In this document: piece by piece, positions 2,987-55,446 of the stretch | Numbering within the stretch: the stretch's first letter is position 1 | How the letters are laid out: each line of letters opens with the position of its first letter | Source of the DNA: a virus | DNA length: 64,000 nt | Virus record (IMG/VR): IMGVR_UViG_3300042452_000984 | Coordinates: 18,632-82,631 of that record | Strand: one strand, 5' to 3' | Program-made: the position numbers and the translations under genes | The notes under the pieces: generated by a model | The model's input: only the letters and a program-made list of their open reading frames with translations | Told to the model about the DNA's origin: nothing | Database searches by the model: none

Positions 2987-3525
2987 GGAGACTGTTATTG
3001 CTCGACCACACCGCCCTGGTGCAGCACCGGAATGGCCCCGGTGTCTACATCAACAACCGGGACAATATGACATTGGTTCCAGGCATTCTAGGCGCCCTGG
3101 AGCCCTACGTTGACAGGAACTACAACGTCGCCATCTGTAGCAACCAGGGCGGCGTCGAGAAAGGCCACCTAGCGTTCGGTGCTTGCCAAAACCTATTCGG
3201 TGAAATGTTCAAGCTGTCCAACTATTGGGTTCAGGCCATTTGGTTTTGCCCCCTAGCCCGGGGCAGCACCGGCAGTTATGCCATTCAAATGACGATGCCC
3301 TACGAACCCAAGACCTATACCAAATGCCAAAAGTATGCCACCACCGGCTACCGGATGCCCCAGGCGGGCATGATTTTGGCCGCCATGGACTGGTTTGGGG
3401 TAACGCCTGAGCAGACCACCATGGTGGGCTTACAGCCGGAGGCTTACTATGCCGCCGCTGATGCAGGCGTCAAAAAGTTTGTCCACAGTTCGTACTTTGT
3501 TGAAAAAGCGGGAGTATTGCAATGA
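2983..3525 (+). CDS. HAD-superfamily-like protein with degenerate active site, 180 aa
   Basis: The layout is that of HAD-IIIA phosphatases of the PNK-3'-phosphatase/histidinol-phosphatase type: motif I at residues 8-10, an SNQGG loop (motif II) at about 53-57, MPQAGM (motif III region) at 125-130 and an AAADAG segment near 157-162. Motif I reads DHT rather than DxD, and the motif IV region reads GLQPEAYY where active enzymes have GDxxxD, so both metal-binding aspartates there are missing. It may be a non-catalytic or altered-chemistry relative. Both ends overlap neighbours by 4 nt, tying it to the clamp gene. Confidence 0.65.
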   Translation: MRRLLLLDHTALVQHRNGPGVYINNRDNMTLVPGILGALEPYVDRNYNVAICSNQGGVEKGHLAFGACQNLFGEMFKLSNYWVQAIWFCPLARGSTGSYAIQMTMPYEPKTYTKCQKYATTGYRMPQAGMILAAMDWFGVTPEQTTMVGLQPEAYYAAADAGVKKFVHSSYFVEKAGVLQ

Positions 3526-4640
3526 AATTTACAGTAGATGCGGGTGATCTGGCAGAGGCGATCGCGCTGTGCGATCGCGCTATCCCTAAGCGCCCTAGCC
3601 GCCCTATCCTGGGCCACATGCTAATGCAGCTAGACAATGGCAGCCTTACCCTAAAAGGGTTTGACGAGGCGCTAGGGATTAGCTTCTCGTTGCCAGTGGA
3701 TATGGAGCAATCCGGTGATTGTTGCATATCCCCAACCTACCTAAAGCCCATCCTGGAGCGCCTATCCGGGCAGGTGGCCTTAGACCTGCAATACCCTGTC
3801 CTGGTGCTAACCACCCTGGGCGCCGAGTACCGGATTAACACCCTCCTGGCTGAGGACTACCCCAACTTGCCCGAGGTGGACGGTACCCCGGTGGAGTTGT
3901 CTATCTCGTCAGAGGAACTACGAGCCGCGATCGCGGCTACGGTGTTCTGCGCCAGTACTGACGAAAGCAAGCAGGTACTTACCGGCGTTCACTTCTCCGT
4001 TACCCCCGGCGAAGGGGGGGAGGCAGGGGTGATGGAGTTAGCGGCCACCGATGGCCATCGGATGATCGCCTACCCGCTACCCGGTAGCGTTGTCATCCCC
4101 GATGACTATCGCCCCGTCACCCTGCCCGGGAAGAGCCTGCGGGAACTGCTAACCGTCCTGAAGGGCGAGGGTGCCGTCAAGCTGACGTTTGATGACGTGT
4201 CTGTGCGTGCCCTATGCGGGGACACCGAGCTCTATAGCCGGGTTATCGAGGGGCAATACCCCAACTACCGGCAGCTATTCCCCAAGGTGTTCTCTAAGGT
4301 GGCGACCTGCGATCGCAAGCCATTCTTAGCCGCCCTCGATCGCACCTTGGTGGTGGCCGGTGAAAACAAGGACATCGTTAAGCTGGAGTTTGACACCACT
4401 GGGCTGGTGATGAGTGCAGAGGCAAAAGAAGCGGCCAAAGCTCAGGAACATGTCGAGGGCGTAACCTGTAGCGAACCCATCACCCTAGCGGGGAACGGTA
4501 AGTACATCAAGGAGGCGCTAACCAATGCGATCGTGGGTGAAACCTTCACTATGGAAATGAATAAGCCAGAAAGCCCAGTGGTTTTTACAGATGGGTCCCC
4601 GGCGACCTATTTAATGATGCCCATTCAGATTAGGGGTTAA
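3522..4640 (+). CDS. dnaN: DNA polymerase III beta sliding clamp
   Basis: Full-length (372 aa) beta clamp. It shows the three-domain layout, the family hallmark ATDGHR at residues 175-180 and the expected C-terminal end YLMMPIQIRG, close to the YLMPxR ending that lines the partner-binding pocket. The clamp encircles DNA and tethers polymerase and other enzymes. ATG 3522 overlaps the previous stop by 4 nt. No polymerase is encoded in the window, so this clamp must work with host enzymes or with phage proteins that have clamp-binding peptides (see 6080, 23795 and 25333). It is close enough to bacterial DnaN to be certain of the fold, and divergent enough to be a phage copy. Confidence 0.92.
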   Translation: MKFTVDAGDLAEAIALCDRAIPKRPSRPILGHMLMQLDNGSLTLKGFDEALGISFSLPVDMEQSGDCCISPTYLKPILERLSGQVALDLQYPVLVLTTLGAEYRINTLLAEDYPNLPEVDGTPVELSISSEELRAAIAATVFCASTDESKQVLTGVHFSVTPGEGGEAGVMELAATDGHRMIAYPLPGSVVIPDDYRPVTLPGKSLRELLTVLKGEGAVKLTFDDVSVRALCGDTELYSRVIEGQYPNYRQLFPKVFSKVATCDRKPFLAALDRTLVVAGENKDIVKLEFDTTGLVMSAEAKEAAKAQEHVEGVTCSEPITLAGNGKYIKEALTNAIVGETFTMEMNKPESPVVFTDGSPATYLMMPIQIRG

Positions 4641-9259: not shown

Positions 9260-10084
9260 ATGGACCCACAAACCCTACAAGCCTTGATGGGAGTATTCCA
9301 ACAAGGCTTACAAATTCTGCAATCTGCCCAGGCGGGTGCCGGCGCGCCCCCTACCGCTGGTGCCCCCGCCGCCAATGGTGCCCCCGCCGCCAATGGTGCG
9401 CCACCCATGGCCGCCGGTGCCCCTCCCGCCATGGACCCCGACGACGAGGACATGGAAGAGGATGACGAGGACATGGATGCCCCCGATGCCATGGATGCTG
9501 ATGATGACGAAGACGACATGGACGACAGCGGCATGGGTGGTTCCTCCCTGCACGATCGCGTCAGTCAGCTAGAAAACCACACCGGCCTTAAGAAAAGCGC
9601 CCGGGGTGGCTCCTTACTTGATGCCGTCGCTGCCCTCGAAGAAACTATCCTTGGCACCGAATACGAAGGTCCCCTAGTAGATCGCGTCAACCAATTAGAG
9701 AAAGCGGCAGGTATCAGCCAACGCGCCCAGGACCAAGCACCGGACGAAATCCCGCTAGAAAACTTGATCAAAAGCGCGATCGAATCCGGCATCCAACAAG
9801 CCATGGCAACCCGTGACCCGGAGGCCAACGAAGACCCGGACGCTATCCCCGACCTACGCCAGATGCGCAAAGCAGCCAAGGGCCAGCGTTATGGCAGTCG
9901 TAAGGGCGTCGCTGGCGCGATCGTCAGTGATGAGGACCTGGTAAAGAGTGCTGCCAGCCTTGGCTGGGACGGCGATGACCTGGACCGCCCCGTGTCCTTC
10001 GGTGATGCGCTGTTGCTGCAATACCATTCACAACAAGCGGGTGAGCCACTGCCATTTTCAGCCGATGAGGCTGACGACGATTAA
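9260..10084 (+). CDS. Capsid scaffold-like acidic protein, 274 aa
   Basis: Located directly between protease and major capsid protein, where scaffold genes lie. It has a helical N-terminus, an Ala/Pro/Gly-rich linker (residues 25-60), a very acidic Asp/Glu/Met tract (60-95), then predicted helical or coiled segments with two similar DRV.QLE motifs, and a basic KGQRYGSRKG patch near 210. Highly charged helical proteins of this kind drive procapsid assembly and are then cleaved. No sequence-level family hit is claimed; the call rests on position and composition. Confidence 0.65.
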   Translation: MDPQTLQALMGVFQQGLQILQSAQAGAGAPPTAGAPAANGAPAANGAPPMAAGAPPAMDPDDEDMEEDDEDMDAPDAMDADDDEDDMDDSGMGGSSLHDRVSQLENHTGLKKSARGGSLLDAVAALEETILGTEYEGPLVDRVNQLEKAAGISQRAQDQAPDEIPLENLIKSAIESGIQQAMATRDPEANEDPDAIPDLRQMRKAAKGQRYGSRKGVAGAIVSDEDLVKSAASLGWDGDDLDRPVSFGDALLLQYHSQQAGEPLPFSADEADDD

Positions 10085-24586: not shown

Positions 24587-25330
24587 ATGCTAGTCCTTGA
24601 AATTACTGAGAACACGGTCCTAAAGCCAGGGCCGGAGCAAGCGATCGCCTACGATAAGGCAGCGACAGTGAATATCGGCAAAAGGCGATCGTTCCCGCTG
24701 TTGGCTTATCAGTTATTGCACGGCCATGTGCATTTCACCATCGACCCAAAACGGTTTGACTTGGTGAGCCTGCACCCGAGCGGCAGAAATACTTGGTGGG
24801 TATATGCGGGACACGCCAGCGATCCATCAGGGTTTGGTTCAGGCAATGATCCCAAGGATGAACCCCCGACTCGCCGGGACGGCCATCGAATTATCCTACC
24901 AGGGTTTGAGAACGACTGCTCCAGTACTCAGCCGATCTCGTCAAAAGCGCCTAACTTCACCTGGGGTGAAGCGCTCCATGTTGCCGCCGATGGTAGCTAC
25001 CGGCACCCTGAAAATGCCTCCGTGGTGTACGGCATCATTCGGGTGGCGGAGGTGATGCAGGACATTCGGGAGCGGTTTAAGCGGCCCATCAAGATCAACT
25101 CTTGGTATCGGGACCCGGCTACTAATGCCCGCGTGGGGGGCGCTCGTTTTTCTACCCACATGAAAGGCCATGCGGTGGACTTTAATATCCCTGGGCTGTC
25201 CCTGGCGGACATTTATAACGAGTTGGATCATTGGTGGGGTGGCCAAGGTGGGCTTGCCCGGGGTAATGGGTTTATTCATATCGACTGCCGTGGCAGCCGT
25301 GCCCGGTGGGACTACCCTGGGGTTAGGTAG
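24587..25330 (+). CDS. M15-type D,D-peptidase (endolysin or tail-associated), 247 aa
   Basis: The C-terminal 110 residues carry the M15 metallopeptidase pattern: INSWYRDPATN, then STHMKGHAVDF (zinc ligands His 189 and Asp 196 by approximate count) and a final GFIHIDCRG with the third ligand. Such enzymes cut the peptide cross-links of peptidoglycan. The N-terminal 95 residues form a separate unknown domain. There is no signal peptide. Placement after tape measure and methyltransferase and before hub genes suggests a virion-associated wall hydrolase, but it could equally be the lysis enzyme. Confidence 0.8.
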   Translation: MLVLEITENTVLKPGPEQAIAYDKAATVNIGKRRSFPLLAYQLLHGHVHFTIDPKRFDLVSLHPSGRNTWWVYAGHASDPSGFGSGNDPKDEPPTRRDGHRIILPGFENDCSSTQPISSKAPNFTWGEALHVAADGSYRHPENASVVYGIIRVAEVMQDIRERFKRPIKINSWYRDPATNARVGGARFSTHMKGHAVDFNIPGLSLADIYNELDHWWGGQGGLARGNGFIHIDCRGSRARWDYPGVR

Positions 25331-37959: not shown

Positions 37960-38465
37960 TGTTTTTCTTCATTGACCAAGACAATCAAATTGTTGGCTAT
38001 TGCAACGACGAAAGCGTCGGCACTCCCTCCGGCTTTACCTTAGTCGAAGGGCCAGACGCTAGCCGCGACGACCTCTATTACGACGGCACCGCCATTCAGC
38101 TAAAGCCCGATCGCCCCAGCGATACCGCCTATTGGGACAACACCACCAACACCTGGCAGGAGCCACCCCCGCCTCCACCCGCGCCAGTGCTGCCCAACTG
38201 GGGCAACCTCGCCGATCGCTTGGTGGCTGACATCGACATCCTCGCCATCTTGGCCACTAACCCGTTATTCCCTGCCTTGGTGGGCCGCCTGCAAACCCTG
38301 CGCAATGGTGGCGCCATGGGTGACCCGGAACCTTTGATAGCGCTCTGGAACCACCAGTCCTATAGCTTCACTGAGGCACAGCTAGATACCCTCAACCTGA
38401 TGGCCGAAGAGGAGCATATCCCGCTAGCGATCACGCCGGAGGGGACGTTAGCGGCTACGTCTTGA
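37959..38465 (+). CDS. Fibre-associated or fibre assembly-like protein, 168 aa
   Basis: TAATG-coupled to the fibre gene. Its start (MFFFIDQDNQIVGYCNDE) and a Pro8-like linker after NTWQEPPP match the layout of tail-fibre assembly proteins: a strand-rich head, a Pro stretch at about 67-75 and a helical tail. Role inferred from position and form. It converges with the leftward cassette and overlaps its last gene by 11 nt. Confidence 0.55.
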   Translation: MFFFIDQDNQIVGYCNDESVGTPSGFTLVEGPDASRDDLYYDGTAIQLKPDRPSDTAYWDNTTNTWQEPPPPPPAPVLPNWGNLADRLVADIDILAILATNPLFPALVGRLQTLRNGGAMGDPEPLIALWNHQSYSFTEAQLDTLNLMAEEEHIPLAITPEGTLAATS

Positions 38466-38649
38466 AGTAGCGCCAAGTGCCGATCGCACCCCCCGCGATC
38501 GCGGCTAGGCCAGCGGCAAGCATAATTACATCCCCAGCGCGAATTTGCGCCAGTATCACTAAAAAGACCCCATAGCCTAGGCTGTGGGGTCTTTGCTTTG
38601 ACCATTCAAAAGCCGCCTGGATGGCGGCCAACACCCGCATTAAAGTCAT
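38455..38649 (-). CDS. Small two-span membrane protein, 64 aa
   Basis: Last gene of a leftward cassette; ATG overlaps the previous stop by 4 nt (ATGA). Two hydrophobic stretches: YGVFLVILAQI and DVIMLAAGLAAIAGGAIG. A strong hairpin (38561-38595) lies within the coding sequence. Size and topology resemble small holins, but there is no lysis enzyme beside it. Confidence 0.55.
   Translation of the reverse strand: MTLMRVLAAIQAAFEWSKQRPHSLGYGVFLVILAQIRAGDVIMLAAGLAAIAGGAIGTWRYFKT
38561..38595. terminator. Bidirectional terminator-like hairpin inside a coding frame
   Basis: AAAGACCCCATAGCC (38563-38577) and GGCTGTGGGGTCTTT (38580-38594) pair with one wobble; A5 on the left gives a T-tract for leftward transcripts. 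It separates convergent operons although the 38455-38649 frame runs through it. Confidence 0.65.
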
Positions 38650-39221
38650 TGAGCAAGCGACCTAGGAGAACTGCCTGTCATACTAGCATTATTGCTACTG
38701 GCTAGCAGGCGACCGTAGAAATGGGTGCCGTGGAAGAAGGCTTCTGGCCCCACCACGTTCAGCCAAACTGGAAAGGCGCTAATCGCCCAGAGCGATGGCA
38801 CGCCAAAAGCAAGCATCGACGTTCTCAGGTTGTACGAGTACGCCCAGAAGCCGCCATAACCCAGGGCCAGTACCACCGCTATAGTAACCACGGTCCCCAA
38901 GGACCGGCTGACCACGTTGTCCGAGCTGAGCCGCTTGATTTCGCCATAGGCCAGCGGTAGCCCCTGGGGGTGGAAGGCAATGCCACTGATCACCAAGCAC
39001 AGCAAGTCAGTCGCGATCGCACTACCGTAGCGAGCGATCATCCCCTCCATGCCCGCCCGGGCGGCCACTGGGGTAAAGTCTACCGTCGCCGCCGCCTTGG
39101 CGACTGCACCAATCCCCACTGCCGAATAGTGGATATTGGTGGCCATCAACAGGGCAGCGATCGCCAGGGCGCCGTAGTTCAGGCTACGGCTAATCATTGG
39201 GTTGCGGCCTATCGCGGTCAT
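38646..39221 (-). CDS. Multi-span membrane protein, 191 aa
   Basis: Hydrophobic segments at about 17-37, 68-84, 105-127 and 137-158 give roughly four spans; the C-terminal 30 residues are Ser/Asn-rich. 4-nt overlaps at both ends couple it to its neighbours. No transporter or channel signature is evident. Part of the leftward membrane cassette. Confidence 0.7.
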   Translation of the reverse strand: MTAIGRNPMISRSLNYGALAIAALLMATNIHYSAVGIGAVAKAAATVDFTPVAARAGMEGMIARYGSAIATDLLCLVISGIAFHPQGLPLAYGEIKRLSSDNVVSRSLGTVVTIAVVLALGYGGFWAYSYNLRTSMLAFGVPSLWAISAFPVWLNVVGPEAFFHGTHFYGRLLASSNNASMTGSSPRSLAQ

Positions 39222-39865
39222 GATTTTACGTCCTTTATCAACGAAATAATCCGGTTATACTTTTCAGTCCCTTTGGACTGACCAAACACCACAGTGACGA
39301 TCTTGTTTTGACTAACCCCTGCTGTTATCGCCCGCTCCACCCAAACAGACGCATTAACCAACGCCTTGCGATCGCGATAATTAGTAACCTGAGCAGGCGG
39401 TAAATGCACTGGAAAAAAGCATTTGTTTTGCTCCAACCATTCGTTAGGCGGTAGTGTTTCCACCTCACTACAACCGGTTGCTCCACCGGTTGTACAACCA
39501 GTTGCTACAACCGGTTGTAATGCTGGTTGCACCAAGGTTTCAGGGGCATGTGAGGGGGTAGGCTCAGGGGCGGTTGCAGGTGAGTCTATGCCTACCCAGG
39601 GGTAACGCTCGATCGCTTCTATTTCTTCTTTTGAATACTTACGATCTAACTCATCCCAAAATTGCTTAGACGCCGTTGCCCGCACTGGCGGCTTCTCCAC
39701 TTCAACCCTAGCAGTAGCCATGGCTGGACTTGCTAGCCAGGGTGAACCCTCCCCGCCTGTTCTCGCCACCAATTCCAGCTGCTCCCGCTCGTTGTCCCAT
39801 TGCGCAAGCTTAGCGGCGCCAACACCTAGAGCAAGGAAGAAAAAGAAAGCGATCGCGTTACCCAT
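39218..39865 (-). CDS. Membrane-anchored protein with helical C-terminal domain, 215 aa
   Basis: ATG 39865 has GGAGGG at good spacing; the upstream TTG 39895 is rejected. It starts with one hydrophobic span (AIAFFFFLALGVGAA), then a charged coiled segment, a Pro/Thr/Val-rich linker containing Cys residues, and a 60-residue C-terminal domain (DRKALVNASVWVERAITAGVSQNKIV...) that could be a winged-helix-like fold. DNA for the linker contains CAACCGGTTG repeats. No family recognised. Confidence 0.6.
   Translation of the reverse strand: MGNAIAFFFFLALGVGAAKLAQWDNEREQLELVARTGGEGSPWLASPAMATARVEVEKPPVRATASKQFWDELDRKYSKEEIEAIERYPWVGIDSPATAPEPTPSHAPETLVQPALQPVVATGCTTGGATGCSEVETLPPNEWLEQNKCFFPVHLPPAQVTNYRDRKALVNASVWVERAITAGVSQNKIVTVVFGQSKGTEKYNRIISLIKDVKS
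39471..39535 (-). repeat. Iteron-like CAACCGGTTG repeats inside the 39218 gene
   Basis: CAACCGGTTG (39471-39480) and ACAACCGGTTGT (39507-39518) are palindromes. Variants CACCGGTTGTACAACCAGTTG and CTGGTTGCACC fill the rest. They encode a Gln-Pro-Val-Val/Thr-Gly-Cys linker, so they may be a coding repeat, but the palindromic spacing is suggestive of a binding array. Confidence 0.5.
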
Positions 39866-39881
39866 ATGCACCCTCCAACCC

Positions 39882-40436
39882 TTAACTACCGGCAATCACC
39901 GCCACCAACACACCGAAAAACAATCCGGCAATAATCATTACCCCGCCGCCCTCGCCTGCCGTCTGGCTGACGGTGATATTAGGGTTTGACTCAACGTAGA
40001 TATGCTGTGGCTGTTGGGGCTGCTGCTGTTGGGCCATCATGGCCGCCAACAACGCATCAGAACGCTGTTGCTGTTGAGCCATTAACGCCATCATCTCAGA
40101 GACACCTGTAGGTGCCTCCTGAGGGCGTTGGGCGGCCTGGACGATAGCTAGGACATCAGCGGCGGTTAAGCCGCCTTCCTGGGCCGCAGAAGCGCCGGGA
40201 GTGCCGTGGTAATGGTTGTGGGTTTCATTGTGAACATTAACCACCATGACTGGCAGCCCTGCCTCTTTGCACAGCCGCACAAAGTCAGGCGGATCGTGAG
40301 TGATCGCATCCTGCAGGGTAGCCAAGTTATCAGGGCGACGCTGCACGGGCGGCAATGCCTCCCACGCATGGCGCGCGATCGCCGCCTTTTGTCGTGGGTC
40401 AGCAAGCGCGATCGCTCTCACATCAACGGTTTCCAT
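39882..40436 (-). CDS. Hypothetical C-terminally membrane-anchored protein, 184 aa
   Basis: ATG 40436 has GGAGG upstream. The N-terminal part is helical and soluble; a His/Asn cluster (VHNETHNHYHG near 78-88) could bind metal; a Gln/Met-rich stretch follows (MAQQQQ occurs twice). The final 22 residues form one membrane span (VMIIAGLFFGVLVAVIAG). Tail-anchored topology inferred. Overlaps the upstream gene by 14 nt. Confidence 0.6.
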   Translation of the reverse strand: METVDVRAIALADPRQKAAIARHAWEALPPVQRRPDNLATLQDAITHDPPDFVRLCKEAGLPVMVVNVHNETHNHYHGTPGASAAQEGGLTAADVLAIVQAAQRPQEAPTGVSEMMALMAQQQQRSDALLAAMMAQQQQPQQPQHIYVESNPNITVSQTAGEGGGVMIIAGLFFGVLVAVIAGS

Positions 40437-40743
40437 TCTTCGCCTCCTTCTGCTTGGTGCGAGACATGGCGACAAGTGCCGCCACCGTGAGCCCAGCGCC
40501 AGCGGCCAGAATGCCAGGATCTAACACCGGCCCTGCCATTGGCGTATCAACCGCTGTAGTGCCCTGGGGAATACCTAGCACCTCCGCCTGGCGAGGTTCT
40601 TGCCCGGCGCAGTAGGTTGCACCATCTACCTGCACGTGGCTATCGCACTCGCGTAATTTCCGTTGCTCAATGTCTATTGCGGACAGGCACTCACTGGTCG
40701 TGCCGTCCTCGTATTCAAACTCCGTGCATTGGTTATCTTCCAT
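40423..40743 (-). CDS. Hypothetical membrane-associated protein, 106 aa
   Basis: Acidic, Cys-containing N-terminal part (Cys at about 6, 19, 33 and 45), then a Pro/Thr linker and one span (GILAAGAGLTVAALVA) with a basic tail (RTKQKEAKNGNR). Positive charge after the span predicts an outside N-terminus and inside C-terminus. The 12-mer ACTCAAAAGACC ends one base before the ATG codon (40745-40756). Confidence 0.55.
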   Translation of the reverse strand: MEDNQCTEFEYEDGTTSECLSAIDIEQRKLRECDSHVQVDGATYCAGQEPRQAEVLGIPQGTTAVDTPMAGPVLDPGILAAGAGLTVAALVAMSRTKQKEAKNGNR

Positions 40744-40768
40744 CGGTCTTTTGAGTGGTGGTTAGGAA

Positions 40769-40804
40769 AGGCGATCGCATAACGAAGGCGCTACGCGATC
40801 GCCT
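40769..40804 (-). terminator. HIP1-based inverted repeat, possible leftward terminator
   Basis: AGGCGATCGC (40769-40778) pairs with GCGATCGCCT (40795-40804) around 16 nt; the leftward strand continues TTTCC. It lies between the 40812 and 40743 genes. Confidence 0.5.
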
Positions 40805-40811
40805 GGAGCAG

Positions 40812-41225
40812 TCATTCAGCCTTGCAATCCACCGATGAGGCGGAGGAAGGGCTCAAAGTTGCCTTGCTTGGCTGCCAAGACAACGCGGGCAGTGGTTCTA
40901 GGTCCAGGGCCACTGCCGCCGTGGACTTTGGGAGCGTTTCCAATTCCTCCTGAAGCAACTGCGCTGTGCGCCCCCACATCAGCTGTCCGCTCATAGCAGC
41001 GGCCAAAAACTGAGCGTTCTGATGGGCCACCCGGTCAATAGCCGCGATCGCGGCCTCCTGGATGCCTGCAGCATGGTCCCGCTGTTCTTTTAGCGCTAGC
41101 TGGAGAGGGTGAGAAACAGAAAGGCTGCTTGCCTCATTGGGTACACCCGGACCCGACTGGGTACAGTTGGGTACAGTCGCCCCCGGATTGCGGGGTTGGT
41201 TGAGCTTGTCGGTATTTAGAGCCAT
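40812..41225 (-). CDS. Hypothetical protein, 137 aa
   Basis: ATG 41225 is preceded by AGGAG. The 92-nt overlap with the upstream regulator gene is unusually large; a later start is possible but none has a better ribosome site. N-terminal 45 residues are Asn/Pro/Ser-rich, then one long helix (AL..QRDHAAGIQEAAIAAIDRVAHQN) and a Ser/Leu-rich tail. No family recognised. Confidence 0.5.
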   Translation of the reverse strand: MALNTDKLNQPRNPGATVPNCTQSGPGVPNEASSLSVSHPLQLALKEQRDHAAGIQEAAIAAIDRVAHQNAQFLAAAMSGQLMWGRTAQLLQEELETLPKSTAAVALDLEPLPALSWQPSKATLSPSSASSVDCKAE

Positions 41226-41496
41226 TAGTTTTCTCCTGACGATATTTTTCAACTTGCCTGAGGGTGTAGTCCAACGCCTCTTGGTGGGTGTAACCCCAGC
41301 TCATGCACTGCCCGTAACAAACCAGCGCTAGGGCATCCTCCTGATCCCACTGCCGCCGGCGGCCAGGCTGACCAGGTTCATAGCCCAGTTTTGCCATCCA
41401 CCGGGATAGCGTGGAAGTAGGAATACTTCCACGGCTCAAACTCTCTGCCAGCAAGGCTTTGAGTTCAGTGTAGGTGTAGGTGACGGTTACTTCCAT
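41134..41496 (-). CDS. Putative MerR/HTH-like DNA-binding regulator, 120 aa
   Basis: A helix-turn-helix-like region (ELKALLAESLSRGSIPTSTLSRWMAKLG, about residues 12-39) is followed by a wing-like QPGRRRQWDQED and a helical dimer-like segment, close to the MerR-type arrangement. First gene of the leftward cassette. Palindromes CGTGGAAnTTCCACG lie at its start (41504-41518) and within its own coding DNA (41410-41433), consistent with autoregulation. GTG 41517 is an alternative start. Confidence 0.55.
   Translation of the reverse strand: MEVTVTYTYTELKALLAESLSRGSIPTSTLSRWMAKLGYEPGQPGRRRQWDQEDALALVCYGQCMSWGYTHQEALDYTLRQVEKYRQEKTNGSKYRQAQPTPQSGGDCTQLYPVGSGCTQ
41410..41433 (-). promoter_or_regulatory. 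Perfect palindrome inside the regulator gene
   Basis: CGTGGAAGTA (41410-41419) and TACTTCCACG (41424-41433), 10-bp arms with a 4-nt centre. The same half-sites occur at the gene start, 70 bp away. Candidate operator. Confidence 0.6.
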
Positions 41497-41503
41497 GGAA
41501 CTT

Positions 41504-41518
41504 CGTGGAACTTCCACG
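41504..41518 (-). promoter_or_regulatory. Palindrome at the regulator start
   Basis: CGTGGAACTTCCACG, seven-base arms. A TTGACA hexamer (minus strand, about 41557-41562) and a weak CTACAG at 17 nt spacing give a possible promoter upstream. Confidence 0.5.
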
Positions 41519-41595
41519 CTCTAGGACTCTTGTACTGTAGTTCCGCTATATCCTCCCTGTCAACCCCCTATCTAGGGGTTAAGTAGGGAGAAAGC

Positions 41596-41633: not shown

Positions 41634-41882
41634 ATGTTCCCCATCACAGAACCGATGCCTGCTAGCAAGCGGAGACTGAAAGAAATCAAGATCAACGTCC
41701 CCGAGGATTTACTGGAAGACGCCCAGCGATTGTTTGAAGCGATCGGGGTTACTGATGGCGATGGCCACCGCGACGTATGGATGGATGGAGTCTATCGCCT
41801 TGCGGAACGGTACAACAAAATTTTAGTTAGCAGGAAATTACTTAGGGATTCTGTCAAGGCAGACGAAACTGGTGATAATTAA
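41634..41882 (+). CDS. Small ribbon-helix-helix-like protein, 82 aa
   Basis: After a short tail, KEIKINVPEDLLEDAQRLFEAIG resembles the strand plus first helix of RHH DNA-binding proteins, and WMDGVYRLAERYNKI fits the second helix. GGAG precedes ATG 41634. Divergent from the leftward membrane cassette, so it could regulate either side. Overlaps the next frame by 11 nt. Confidence 0.5.
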   Translation: MFPITEPMPASKRRLKEIKINVPEDLLEDAQRLFEAIGVTDGDGHRDVWMDGVYRLAERYNKILVSRKLLRDSVKADETGDN

Positions 41883-42258
41883 TTCAGTACTTCTACTTAC
41901 TTCCATGGCATTTTTACCACCGCCTCCATTAAGCGCGATCGCGCAACTGATAGCGGCTAACCTTGGCCCGCTTGTGCCCGCTGGCTGTGATATGCAGCTA
42001 AAGCGCCACCCCAAAGGGGGATATGTAATTTACTTTTATGTAGCTAACGCTACCATCGGCGCTCTTATTGCAAATAATCTTTTATCTGTTATTGGTATTG
42101 CTAAAAACATAATTCCCCTAACCTCTGTCGAAGTCAGGGGAGGGTTTGAGCTGAAGGTAGATGCAGCACGGCTAGAAAAGCTATACCCTGATGAGACGAA
42201 ACTGGTGGACGGAAGGATTGACCTTGCTCTTAGGGGTTGTGGTTTGCCTCCTTCCTGA
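41872..42258 (+). CDS. Hypothetical protein, 128 aa
   Basis: GTG 41872 overlaps the previous gene; ATG 41905 is an alternative that drops 11 hydrophobic residues. A Pro-rich start leads into a beta-alpha pattern (KRHPKGGYVIYFYVANATIGALIANNLL) and ends with a CGLPPS tail. Convergent with and overlapping the 42230 gene by 29 nt. Not recognised. Confidence 0.5.
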   Translation: MIINSVLLLTSMAFLPPPPLSAIAQLIAANLGPLVPAGCDMQLKRHPKGGYVIYFYVANATIGALIANNLLSVIGIAKNIIPLTSVEVRGGFELKVDAARLEKLYPDETKLVDGRIDLALRGCGLPPS

Positions 42259-42574
42259 TGGTATGTCCGTAAACGTCCATCTCGCCAAGCAGCACTTTGG
42301 TCAGGTCATCTATTGATGGACGAGCCGTGCTTTCAAAAAAGGTAAATTCCGGCACCCTCGATAATGCCACTAGCACAATCCAGGCCGGAGTTTTTGCCAA
42401 CCGTCCCCCACGGTACAGAATGTCCTTGCTTAGCGGGATGCCAGAGCGATCGCTTATCCACTGGGTAAAATCTGTCCAGGGTAAATTGTCGCGTTTTGCT
42501 CTTAAAGCATCGACTAACCGCTTAAAGTTGCGGTTGCCCTCATCCGTCACGTAGCTTCTTCGTTCATCAGCCAT
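42230..42574 (-). CDS. Putative DNA-binding regulator, 114 aa
   Basis: ATG 42574 chosen over TTG 42580. The sequence RNFKRLVDALRAKRDNLPWTDF..WISDRSGIPLSKDILYRGGRLAKTPAWIVLVALSRV suggests a helical DNA-binding unit of lambda-repressor type, with a helix-turn-helix at about 35-60 (only parts quoted). It is divergent from the 42690 gene and shares an intergenic region full of dyads, the layout of a repressor with its operators. Confidence 0.5.
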   Translation of the reverse strand: MADERRSYVTDEGNRNFKRLVDALRAKRDNLPWTDFTQWISDRSGIPLSKDILYRGGRLAKTPAWIVLVALSRVPEFTFFESTARPSIDDLTKVLLGEMDVYGHTIRKEANHNP

Positions 42575-42624
42575 TTTCAACTACCTACAAGTAACACCCG
42601 GTCTATCGCAATTCTAAACCCCAG

Positions 42625-43050: not shown

Positions 43051-43089
43051 AAAAAAGGCGATCGCCGGTTATGCGATCGCCTTTTTGTT
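43051..43089 (+). terminator. Rho-independent terminator built on HIP1
   Basis: AAAAAGGCGATCGC (43052-43065) pairs perfectly with GCGATCGCCTTTTT (43073-43086). The stem uses two HIP1-like octamers. Confidence 0.88.
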
Positions 43090-43189: not shown

Positions 43190-43711
43190 ATGAAATATTT
43201 CAAGCACGACCTTTTATCCCGCGAGGATGATAAAATTTGGGAACTCATTGACAGCCACGGGATGCAGGGGTATGGCATCTGGTGGGTCATCCTAGAAGAG
43301 CTTTACAAGACAGAGGCTACAGACTTCCAGGTGGAAGCAACCGATATTTGGCTAAAACGCCTTAGCCGCCAGCTAGGGTTAAGCGATTGGCTGACCATGG
43401 TGCGAACCCTCGATAGGCTTGCTGAACTAAACCTGATTGATGGGCAACTGTGGCGCGATCGCGTGATCTATGCCCACGGCATCGCCAAGCTGCACAGGGA
43501 CGGAGCGTACAGGAGACACAGAGATGCTGTTTTCGAGCGCGATAGGTATTGCTGTGTTTACTGCAGCGCGACGGAGGATTTAACCCTTGACCATGTGATT
43601 CCCTACAGCAAGGGTGGTTCTGATGAGCCAGACAATTTGGCCACCTGCTGCCGCTCCTGCAACAGCAGAAAACACGCTCGCACACCACAAGAATGGCTAG
43701 GAGGTCTGTAA
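43190..43711 (+). CDS. DUF4373-like replication domain fused to an HNH endonuclease, 173 aa
   Basis: Residues 1-95 match the Lin1244/Lin1753-like (DUF4373) N-terminal domain: KYFKHD, KIWELIDSHGMQGYGIWWVILE. The C-terminal 55 residues are a complete HNH domain: CVYC (122-125), DHV (134-136), PYSKGG, DNL, and CRSCN (154-158), with zinc cysteines paired. Phage replication-initiation proteins often start with the first domain. The fusion may be an intein-less homing event that left a functional hybrid, or a nuclease tethered to the replication origin. GAGG precedes ATG 43190. Confidence 0.75.
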   Translation: MKYFKHDLLSREDDKIWELIDSHGMQGYGIWWVILEELYKTEATDFQVEATDIWLKRLSRQLGLSDWLTMVRTLDRLAELNLIDGQLWRDRVIYAHGIAKLHRDGAYRRHRDAVFERDRYCCVYCSATEDLTLDHVIPYSKGGSDEPDNLATCCRSCNSRKHARTPQEWLGGL

Positions 43712-43712
43712 C

Positions 43713-44900
43713 ATGCAATGGTTTCGTTTTTACAGTGAATTTAGATGCGACCCCAAGTTGTCATTGATGACCCCTCACCACCAGTGGGCTTTCATCATCC
43801 TCCTATGCCTTGCTTCAGACAATTCAGAACGAGGAAGGATTGACAACCTGACCGACGAAGAAATTGCCTACCAAATCAGAATGCCGGTCGAGGACTGGCA
43901 AACCTTAAAAGCTAAATTCAAAGTAAAAGGCATGATCGATTGGGATGAGACGGGAATCAAGATCACCCATTGGGCAAGACGCCAGTTTGAATCTGACAAC
44001 TCCACCGAAAGAGTGCGAAAGCACCGTGAACAAAAGCGTTTAGCTACAGCTACGACAAAAGAAACGGGAGTGAAACGTTTCAGTAACGTTAATGCAACGC
44101 CCCCAGATACAGATACAGATCCAGATTCAGATCCGGAGATCGTTAAAAATCTATTAGAAAGTTCTATACCTAAGTGTCCGGAACCGAACATCGAGCCGCT
44201 TTGTAGCGCTGACGCGCTACGCGATCGCGTTTCTGAAGAAAAACATTCAGAACCCGAACCGGCTAAACAGGAAACAGCCGATACCTTTCCCCCTCTGGAT
44301 AGCCAGGTAGAAAAACCTGGGGCTCAACCAAAACCCCGGACAAGAAAAAAATCTGGCGGCAGCGCGCGAAAAATTAGCACACCCAAAAACCATCCCGAGC
44401 AGTTTGATGCTGCATGGGATTCCTACCGCAAGTTTTGCATAGCCGTAGAGAGCACTGTCGCCCTCTCTCAGGCGCGCAAAGAGGCTGTTAGGGAGTGGGA
44501 CAAGCTAATAGAGGGCGGAGACGCCTTAGAGGCGATTCTGGACGGGCTGAACTTCTACATGGAGGTAAAGCGGGTTGAGCATCAACGCAAAGGGGAAGCG
44601 TTTGGCATTTCCCACTTTTGCCGGTTTCTGTCTAACCGCAAATGGGAGGCCGCGATCGCCTACCGCGAGCAAAAGCGATCGCAGCCCGCCCCCGCCAAAG
44701 ACATCACTGCCAACGTCCACGCGGACCTGCAGGACATCACCGTCCTGCTACGTCAATTAGGCCGCTCCGCTGTGCTGCCCCCCGAGTGGCAGGAACGCAC
44801 CGGCAAAACCTTTACCCGCCAGTTGGACGCCGTTGAAAGCGACGACTATGTCGCCTACCTCAAGGGCGAACTAGAGCGTCTTGCTGTGGCCAATCCGTAG
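43713..44900 (+). CDS. Replisome-organiser-like (phage O/DnaD-type) replication protein, 395 aa
   Basis: N-terminal about 105 residues resemble phage replisome organisers: QWFRFYSEFRCDPKLS, LTDEEIAYQIRMP, then KAKFKVKGMIDWDE and ITHWARRQFESD, the end of the winged-helix region. It is followed by a Thr/Asp/Pro repeat tract at about 130-145, a long variable linker with basic KPRTRKKSG, and a C-terminal helical domain. Family role: origin binding and loading of the host helicase. Overlap-free but one base after the preceding stop. Confidence 0.7.
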   Translation: MQWFRFYSEFRCDPKLSLMTPHHQWAFIILLCLASDNSERGRIDNLTDEEIAYQIRMPVEDWQTLKAKFKVKGMIDWDETGIKITHWARRQFESDNSTERVRKHREQKRLATATTKETGVKRFSNVNATPPDTDTDPDSDPEIVKNLLESSIPKCPEPNIEPLCSADALRDRVSEEKHSEPEPAKQETADTFPPLDSQVEKPGAQPKPRTRKKSGGSARKISTPKNHPEQFDAAWDSYRKFCIAVESTVALSQARKEAVREWDKLIEGGDALEAILDGLNFYMEVKRVEHQRKGEAFGISHFCRFLSNRKWEAAIAYREQKRSQPAPAKDITANVHADLQDITVLLRQLGRSAVLPPEWQERTGKTFTRQLDAVESDDYVAYLKGELERLAVANP

Positions 44901-52992: not shown

Positions 52993-53607
52993 TCACTGTC
53001 CTGCTCCCAGCTTTGTCCGCCTCACCCGATCTCGCAATGCCCAAGCGACGGTATCAACGCTATGGCGGTTGGGAGAAAGCGTGGGGGTATAGTGTTCTCC
53101 CATCCATAGCCGCTTGGCAGTATCCACCTCCCAGGTCCAATCGGTAGCGTCTTGGTAAAAGGCCATCGCTACTTGGTAGAGAATCGCGATCGCGTAGGCG
53201 TCCCGTTCGGGTTGGTTGCCCTGCCAGTCGTCATCGATGCTATAGATTTGCTCAGCGTTGTAGCGCCCATCGTCATTTATCCAATGGTCAGCAACCAGGA
53301 TAGTCAGCCGGTGGGTGGAGCGCACCTTACCCCTACCCCTAGCCGGTGCCTTCATCCCTTCAAGGTGGTCACAGGTGATATGAATATCTCGAACGCCACC
53401 CTCCTGGCGATAGGGTTCAAAAATGTAGGCATCCACATGACGCGGGCATAGGGTGCGGGGACGTTGGACACGGTGCAATAGTCCACGCCCCGCTAGCCGC
53501 CATGTCTGCAAGATGCGGTAGGGTCGTTGCTTTACCTGTCGCTCCCGCCACCAGTTGCAGCGGTTGACGTAGCCAAGCAGGTCATTGACTATCCGATCTA
53601 CCTTCAT
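52993..53607 (-). CDS. Hypothetical protein, 204 aa
   Basis: A basic N-terminal region with many Arg and a CDHLE segment; mid-region DHWINDDGRYNAEQIY. No known motif. Overlaps the coiled-coil/TM gene upstream by 26 nt, so it belongs to the operon feeding into the terminase genes. Could be a packaging accessory; not shown. Confidence 0.6.
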   Translation of the reverse strand: MKVDRIVNDLLGYVNRCNWWRERQVKQRPYRILQTWRLAGRGLLHRVQRPRTLCPRHVDAYIFEPYRQEGGVRDIHITCDHLEGMKAPARGRGKVRSTHRLTILVADHWINDDGRYNAEQIYSIDDDWQGNQPERDAYAIAILYQVAMAFYQDATDWTWEVDTAKRLWMGEHYTPTLSPNRHSVDTVAWALRDRVRRTKLGAGQ

Positions 53608-53938
53608 CGTCCGGGTCCTCCTCTGAGGATGATTCGCGGGGCATCGCGTTGGTGCCTAGCACCCCGGCGGCGCCGATGCTGATAATGCTTACCGCTAGAT
53701 CTCGCAATTGCTTCTGATGCTCCGGCGACCAGTTGAATAGCATCAAGGCACCAATGATCACCGCAGTGCTAAAGCCCAGGGTGAGCCGTTGCTGGGTCTT
53801 GAGTTTACGGGATTGCTCGCGATCGCTTTTCATCAGCTTCAGTTGCCGCTCTTGCAACTCCTGTAGCTTTTCATTAATCAACTTCAAATGCTTCTCTATT
53901 GAGTCCAAGCGACGGCACAGAATATCAAGGAACTTCAC
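53582..53938 (-). CDS. Coiled-coil membrane protein, possible holin, 118 aa
   Basis: A Leu/Lys/Glu coiled coil (about residues 5-45) is followed by two hydrophobic segments (LGFSTAVIIGALMLF and LAVSIISIGAAGVLG) and an acidic tail. This is the shape of small holins or XhlA-type proteins, but no lysozyme is adjacent. ATG 53938 overlaps the previous stop by 4 nt. Confidence 0.6.
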   Translation of the reverse strand: MKFLDILCRRLDSIEKHLKLINEKLQELQERQLKLMKSDREQSRKLKTQQRLTLGFSTAVIIGALMLFNWSPEHQKQLRDLAVSIISIGAAGVLGTNAMPRESSSEEDPDDEGRSDSQ

Positions 53939-55293: not shown

Positions 55294-55446
55294 CTACAGC
55301 TTCCCCGCAGCTGCCAGCCATACCAGCGCTGCCACGGCACCCACCACCACGCCGGATAAAGTAAAGCGGATCTCGTGGAGCATTACCTCATGCCGGGCTA
55401 TCTGGGTAGCGATCGCCTTCACTTGGGCCAGTTGATCCTCAGACAT
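55294..55446 (-). CDS. Small XhlA/holin-like membrane protein, 50 aa
   Basis: A 25-residue amphipathic helix (DQLAQVKAIATQIARHEVML) and one span (VVVGAVAALVWLAAAG), as in XhlA-type hemolysin/holin accessories. AGGAG precedes ATG 55446 and a perfect TATAAT box lies upstream. The first gene of the leftward operon. Confidence 0.6.
   Translation of the reverse strand: MSEDQLAQVKAIATQIARHEVMLHEIRFTLSGVVVGAVAALVWLAAAGKL

Follow-up and report, generated by a model that had tools for sequence, protein, structure and literature searches.

A conserved membrane operon of a temperate cyanobacterial myovirus, headed by a putative regulator akin to those of Leptolyngbyales mobile elements

A temperate cyanobacterial myovirus carries, in its regulatory region, seven leftward genes that form a fixed unit within their phage group; the first of them, g7, is related to regulators that head membrane operons on Leptolyngbyales mobile elements. 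Our tentative reading, to which we give a probability of about 0.35, is that this cassette encodes a plasmid-type, autoregulated inner-membrane complex that was recruited into the regulatory region of the phage, most likely to serve in exclusion or maintenance, and that most plausibly excludes incoming DNA. Taken in parts, the product is probably a borrowed membrane complex, and its task may be to bar foreign DNA.

The phage and its likely host

The stretch of DNA analysed here (the window, 64,000 nucleotides) comprises bases 18632–82631 of an 82.6-kb IMG/VR virus record. A 92.5-kb relative (G005) places the two ends of that record within a few kilobases of each other, the map being circularly permuted. 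The phage genes include those for a tail sheath, baseplate, portal, terminase and serine integrase, and the phage also encodes an M15 peptidase, a beta clamp and a sigma factor with best matches in cyanobacteria. The sigma-70 factor, a DUF5131 protein and the DNA polymerase III beta clamp are found at L024:8744–9880, L024:7954–8643 and window positions 3522–4640, respectively. The cyanobacterial HIP1 octamer occurs in 127 copies in the window; HIP1-octamer hairpins are located at 43052–43086 and 40772–40803, the first being terminator-like with T runs on both strands. The host order is likely to be Leptolyngbyales, because one genome of that order has, on a contig of 4 kb (G644:C290, L150), a terminase 54% identical to that of the phage. 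This match and the similarity of the sigma factor are the whole basis for assigning a host, which counts against our reading.

The cassette runs leftward, with the tail genes on one side and the regulatory region on the other. It diverges from the regulatory genes, after which the replication genes follow, and this arrangement counts in favour of our reading. At other loci, too, a small gene resembling the divergent 82-aa gene (Table 1) is divergent to the g7 homologue or to the gene in the equivalent position, and hhalign comparison detected no sequence homology among these small genes. The ORF o116 (42230–42580) could encode the lysogeny repressor; since it is a candidate, expression of the cassette in the prophage is something that we infer, and this counts against our reading. 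At 43190–43711 and 43713–44900 a replication-initiator-like gene is represented by its N-terminal part, after which comes an HNH endonuclease domain, as is also the case in the relative G004; one continuous ORF of about 400 aa occupies this position in L003 and L009. The HNH segment resembles a homing-type insertion.

Gene content and conservation of the cassette

The cassette (41496–38455) had been described preliminarily as seven leftward genes, five of them with membrane spans, joined by 4-nt overlaps. All seven ORFs (g7 to g1) are indeed present, and their order is fully syntenic in five other related IMG/VR contigs. Minimum omega is 0.05–0.23 for g1 to g6, the overlap with g6 being the reason for omitting g7 from this list, and g1 to g6 are under purifying selection. 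Chance ORFs are ruled out by these omega values together with the synteny. When the whole viral collection was searched separately with g1, g2, g3, g4 and g7, each retrieved the same five contigs and no others. The co-occurrence of homologues, proposed earlier as a check, is thus found; because the five contigs are close relatives belonging to one phage group, it lends weak support to a common system and does not imply that the genes travel as a unit.

Gene starts were refined using conservation and ribosome-binding sites. The ATG start of g4 is backed by its conservation and an AGGAGG site, and the start of g6 lies inside g7 with a good ribosome-binding site. The 4-nt overlap (ATGA) is confined to g3/g2 and g2/g1, and the other junctions consist of overlaps of 14 nt (g5/g4) and 92 nt (g7/g6) and gaps of 68 nt (g6/g5) and 16 nt (g4/g3). 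Two genes are each far more divergent than their neighbours in one relative, namely g6 at L003:7967–8410 (60%) and g4 in G004 (L010, about 9410–9994; 62%), suggesting allele exchange inside the cassette.

Table 1. Features of the cassette and its borders (window positions; the start of each leftward gene is its higher coordinate)
Feature	Position	Strand	Description
g1	38455–38649	-	64-aa two-span hairpin protein
AAAGACCCC...GGGGTCTTT	38563–38594		Hairpin inside g1; T-rich flanks
g2	38646–39221	-	About four membrane spans: two by strict cut, others by eye
g3	39218–39865	-	N-terminal membrane span; very conserved C-terminal domain
g4	39882–40436	-	Soluble domain and C-terminal tail-anchor membrane span
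g5	40423–40743	-	Four cysteines in N-terminal part, one C-terminal membrane span, basic tail
g6	40812–41225	-	No membrane span; overlaps g7 by 92 nt; omega 0.21
g7	41134–41496	-	Putative DNA-binding regulator
CGTGGAAGTATTCCTACTTCCACG	41410–41433		Palindrome inside g7; 10-bp arms, 4-nt gap
TTCCATGGAA	41491–41500		Operator-like palindrome across the g7 ATG
CGTGGAAGTTCCACG	41504–41518		Operator-like palindrome between promoter and g7 start; invariant in six genomes
TTGACA-18-TACAGT	41534–41563	-	Sigma-70-type promoter (consensus scan); both boxes identical in all relatives
AACCCCTAGATAGGGGGTT	41562–41580		Inverted repeat overlapping the -35 region; possible second operator
82-aa gene	41634–41882	+	Divergent gene; ribbon-helix-helix-like by eye

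The membrane proteins and the hairpin within g1

Hydrophobic spans were recognized in g1, g2, g3, g4 and g5, in agreement with the five membrane genes described before. By a simple hydropathy cut, five of the seven ORFs inside the cassette are flagged, compared with 13 of the 95 outside it (Fisher p = 0.0017). The distribution of charges predicts that g5 has its N-terminus outside and its C-terminus inside, that the tail-anchored g4 keeps its soluble part inside, that g2 crosses the membrane four times and that g1 forms a two-span hairpin. AlphaFold2 models made with four close sequences gave no confident fold, the pLDDT being 40 for g2 and 35 for g3.

The g1 protein, the second span of which is rich in glycine and alanine, is 95–97% identical across the group, substitutions occurring mainly at third codon positions. 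The stretch containing the hairpin inside g1 folds at -23 to -26 kcal/mol, and the hairpin is kept in a divergent relative. Given the near-invariant protein and the retained hairpin, both the reading frame and the fold appear to be constrained. The hairpin is probably a two-way terminator common to the convergent tail and cassette operons.

Promoter and palindromes of the regulator gene

Judged by eye, g7 looks like a MerR-like winged-helix DNA-binding regulator. The sigma-70-type promoter sits directly upstream of it, and the three palindromes listed in Table 1 span the interval from this promoter to about codon 30 of g7. All three are identical in six genomes, with variation at neighbouring positions, and the pattern GTGGAA-N(0–12)-TTCCAC is absent elsewhere in the record. 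The inverted repeat at the -35 region is present as a single copy in the record; its arms are kept in the divergent relative and its loop varies. The invariance of the promoter and the three palindromes in all relatives suggests that g7 regulates itself. The preliminary description had proposed an autoregulated DNA-binding gene carrying palindromes; the palindromes are borne out, and the autoregulation is supported by this conservation. A cluster of GGAAC/GTTCC half-sites lies near the start of g7, and likewise near that of the g7 homologue in L160, L161, L162 and L163, which counts in favour of our reading; L158 and L159 lack such a cluster, which counts against it.

Family searches

Searches of Pfam, PHROG, NCBIfam and PADLOC returned nothing useful for g1 to g6, and no family in them explains any of the membrane genes, so that the earlier proposal of an undescribed system gains support. 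The absence of lysis and structural matches was likewise confirmed: no cassette protein matched a known lysis, defence or structural family, apart from a weak match of g7 to the PADLOC family mad1 (E 6e-4, limited to a 30-residue segment of the DNA-binding domain). Family searches detected no P-loop ATPase among g1 to g7, nor is there an FtsK-like translocase of the Streptomyces spd/TraB type in the cassette. There were no matches in phage DNA searches with the cassette, in phage and plasmid protein searches with g3, or in plasmid searches with g7 and its L158 homologue. Scanning genome contigs with the g3 alignment turned up no relatives, and PDB searches with g7 and g3 gave chance-level matches only. 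Profiles of g3, g2 and g4, run without a positive control, each found matches in none of 386 cyanobacterial genomes.

Related operons on cyanobacterial mobile elements

Among 65 Leptolyngbyales genomes searched, five contain homologues of g7, at six loci (L158–L163). The homologues are 33–40% identical, with hhalign E-values of 5e-9 and 9e-10, and the kinship of g7 with these mobile-element regulators, new here, is firm. L158 and L159 also contain a g6 homologue (E 2.8e-5 among 17 proteins and 0.006 among 3626 ORFs), which overlaps the g7 homologue in the same manner; none was detected in L161 or in the plasmids. We regard the kinship of g6 as moderately supported by sequence. The hhalign E-values and the one for 17 proteins come from small comparison sets and are not database-wide values. 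Comparison of g1 to g5 with the membrane proteins of the elements and plasmids gave no significant profile match, which counts against our reading.

In L158, the contig of which has a ParA-like gene upstream, the g7 and g6 homologues are followed by genes for a two-span protein, an N-anchored protein and a four-span protein, and then by an ATPase gene. In L159 small ORFs replace the two-span gene, and the N-anchored, four-span and ATPase genes are present. In L160–L163 the genes behind the g7 homologue encode, in order, a soluble protein, a protein with one span, an ATPase of a second type, a membrane-spanning M23 peptidase and a replication-like protein. These genes lie within a block of about 9 kb that is common to four Leptolyngbyales genomes and has the appearance of an integrated element not described before. 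Comparison of the two types of ATPase shows them to be related (hhalign E 3e-6), and the first has weak Pfam matches including HerA/DUF87 and the TraG P-loop. We also considered whether the C-terminal domain of g3 corresponds to the C-terminal winged helix of the ATPases; profile comparison did not support this.

Relatives of the first-type ATPase were found on 26 cyanobacterial plasmids, 20 of which are typed as mobilizable, and some Nostoc strains have a related ATPase on several plasmids each. In the two Nostoc plasmids inspected, pn5 (L174) and pCENA543c (L175), the ATPase gene ends a membrane operon that adjoins replication and partition genes and diverges from ParG and a replication-type gene. 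The stretch of Calothrix plasmid4 shown contains no replication or partition genes, and the match in Kovacikia is a fragment next to two relaxases. The heads of the Nostoc operons correspond to g7 and g6 by position only, and this too counts against our reading.

The phage cassette thus shares with the L158 and L159 operons a homologous g7 and an overlapping g6 at the head, with membrane proteins after them, and with L160–L163 a homologous g7 followed by membrane proteins, but it has no M23 peptidase such as the latter carry. The element and plasmid operons carry a P-loop ATPase whereas the cassette does not, and phage g1 to g5 have no detectable sequence relation to their membrane proteins. 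As there is no ATPase among g1 to g7, we class the cassette only as a related variant of the operons headed by g7 and g6. The secretion-like complex suggested earlier is supported indirectly, inasmuch as other cyanobacterial elements have g7, and in part g6, at the head of membrane operons that include a HerA/TraG-like ATPase.

Possible function

On the available sequences, the most economical reading is that of a membrane operon controlled by g7, with exchangeable membrane genes, that occurs on several kinds of cyanobacterial mobile DNA. In the phage, host-type RNA polymerase would transcribe leftward from 41563–41534, and the g7 protein would bind the three palindromes at the start of and inside its own gene, keeping transcription low and self-limiting. 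The g6 product would be an accessory protein. The g5, g4, g3, g2 and g1 proteins would be co-produced, partly by translational coupling (g3-g2-g1), and would assemble in the inner membrane; the hairpin within g1 would end this transcript as well as the convergent ones from the tail genes. The P-loop ATPase of the related operons could pump DNA, and the motorless phage complex would most likely be passive. As a form without a motor cannot itself pump DNA, exclusion or membrane anchoring is favoured, and the phage complex would most plausibly keep out the incoming DNA of related phages or plasmids for as long as the cell harbours the prophage.

Superinfection exclusion would suit a cassette located next to the regulatory region. 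The nearest parallel for position is ltp of the temperate phage TP-J34, a superinfection-exclusion gene in the lysogeny module, which likewise specifies a membrane-located product from within the regulatory region (PMC3952083). Ltp, however, is a single lipoprotein as against the five membrane proteins of the cassette, for which exclusion is a prediction. For g7 the nearest functional parallel is SpdA2 of the Streptomyces plasmid pIJ101, a DNA-binding protein whose target palindromes lie within its own coding sequence and which influences the stability of the plasmid (PMC4170104). The spd/tra region is a plasmid transfer and stability region with an ATPase (the FtsK-like TraB), as in the cyanobacterial relatives (PMC4170104), and by gene content g7 is comparable in being a DNA-binding protein with in-gene palindromes. 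The likeness is nevertheless drawn from function, the Streptomyces host is Gram-positive, and the phage cassette has no ATPase.

This parallel also speaks for a different explanation, that the cassette is a plasmid-type module for spread or maintenance in which the membrane proteins and g7, with its in-gene palindromes, help to keep the element or to move it between the cells of a filament, as proposed for the spd genes of Streptomyces plasmids. The related operon heads and ATPases do sit on plasmid-like DNA. The likely host order, Leptolyngbyales, includes filamentous cyanobacteria, which also speaks for such a module. We consider it rather unlikely, given that the cassette has no DNA-pumping ATPase and that the phage, having a serine integrase of its own, has no need of upkeep as a plasmid.

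The remaining two explanations are improbable. In a lysis module, g1 would serve as a small holin with two spans, and the M15 peptidase encoded at 24587 would be assisted by g3 to g5 in a spanin-like or anti-holin role. As in holin-endolysin cassettes, a small two-span protein follows directly after the tail genes, and g1 would suit the part with its 64 aa and its glycine- and alanine-rich second span; furthermore, no holin adjoins the M15 peptidase. The phage operon, however, differs from such cassettes in its five membrane genes and its own DNA-binding regulator, its promoter is of host type, and none of its proteins matches a holin, spanin or endolysin family. Lysis is less likely because g7 heads operons on elements that have no virion genes in the stretches read, and because a weak holin candidate lies elsewhere in the window, at 53582–53938 (PHROG holin E 0.0066), as does a one-span coiled protein at 55294–55446. 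The former is a coiled-coil plus two-span protein encoded in the leftward terminase operon, and the latter, also a candidate holin, has 50 aa and is encoded upstream of that operon at a distance of 97 nt. The prophage might instead carry a defence against phages, as had been suggested before, or a toxin-antitoxin system, either of them acting at the membrane. The compactness of the operon, with its regulator and membrane proteins, and the mad1 match of g7 would agree with this. Beyond this match, which covers only the DNA-binding segment, defence found no support, and PADLOC matched none of the membrane genes; moreover, the occurrence of related ATPases on several plasmids in single Nostoc strains fits a backbone function better than defence cargo.

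Beyond the preferred reading of a recruited, DNA-excluding membrane complex, we raise as a speculative and doubtful extension that an undescribed, modular membrane machine, under the control of a g7-type regulator with in-gene palindromes, is common to cyanobacterial plasmids, integrated elements and temperate phages. On plasmids, its ATPase-bearing form would serve to maintain DNA or to transport it, perhaps along filaments, and its ATPase-less phage form would block or steer DNA entry. If this link is true, a phage operon without database matches would be connected with membrane operons on Leptolyngbyales elements that are themselves uncharacterised and, less closely, with the backbones of Nostoc plasmids, and the control by cyanobacterial plasmids and prophages of DNA movement across or between membranes would become testable.
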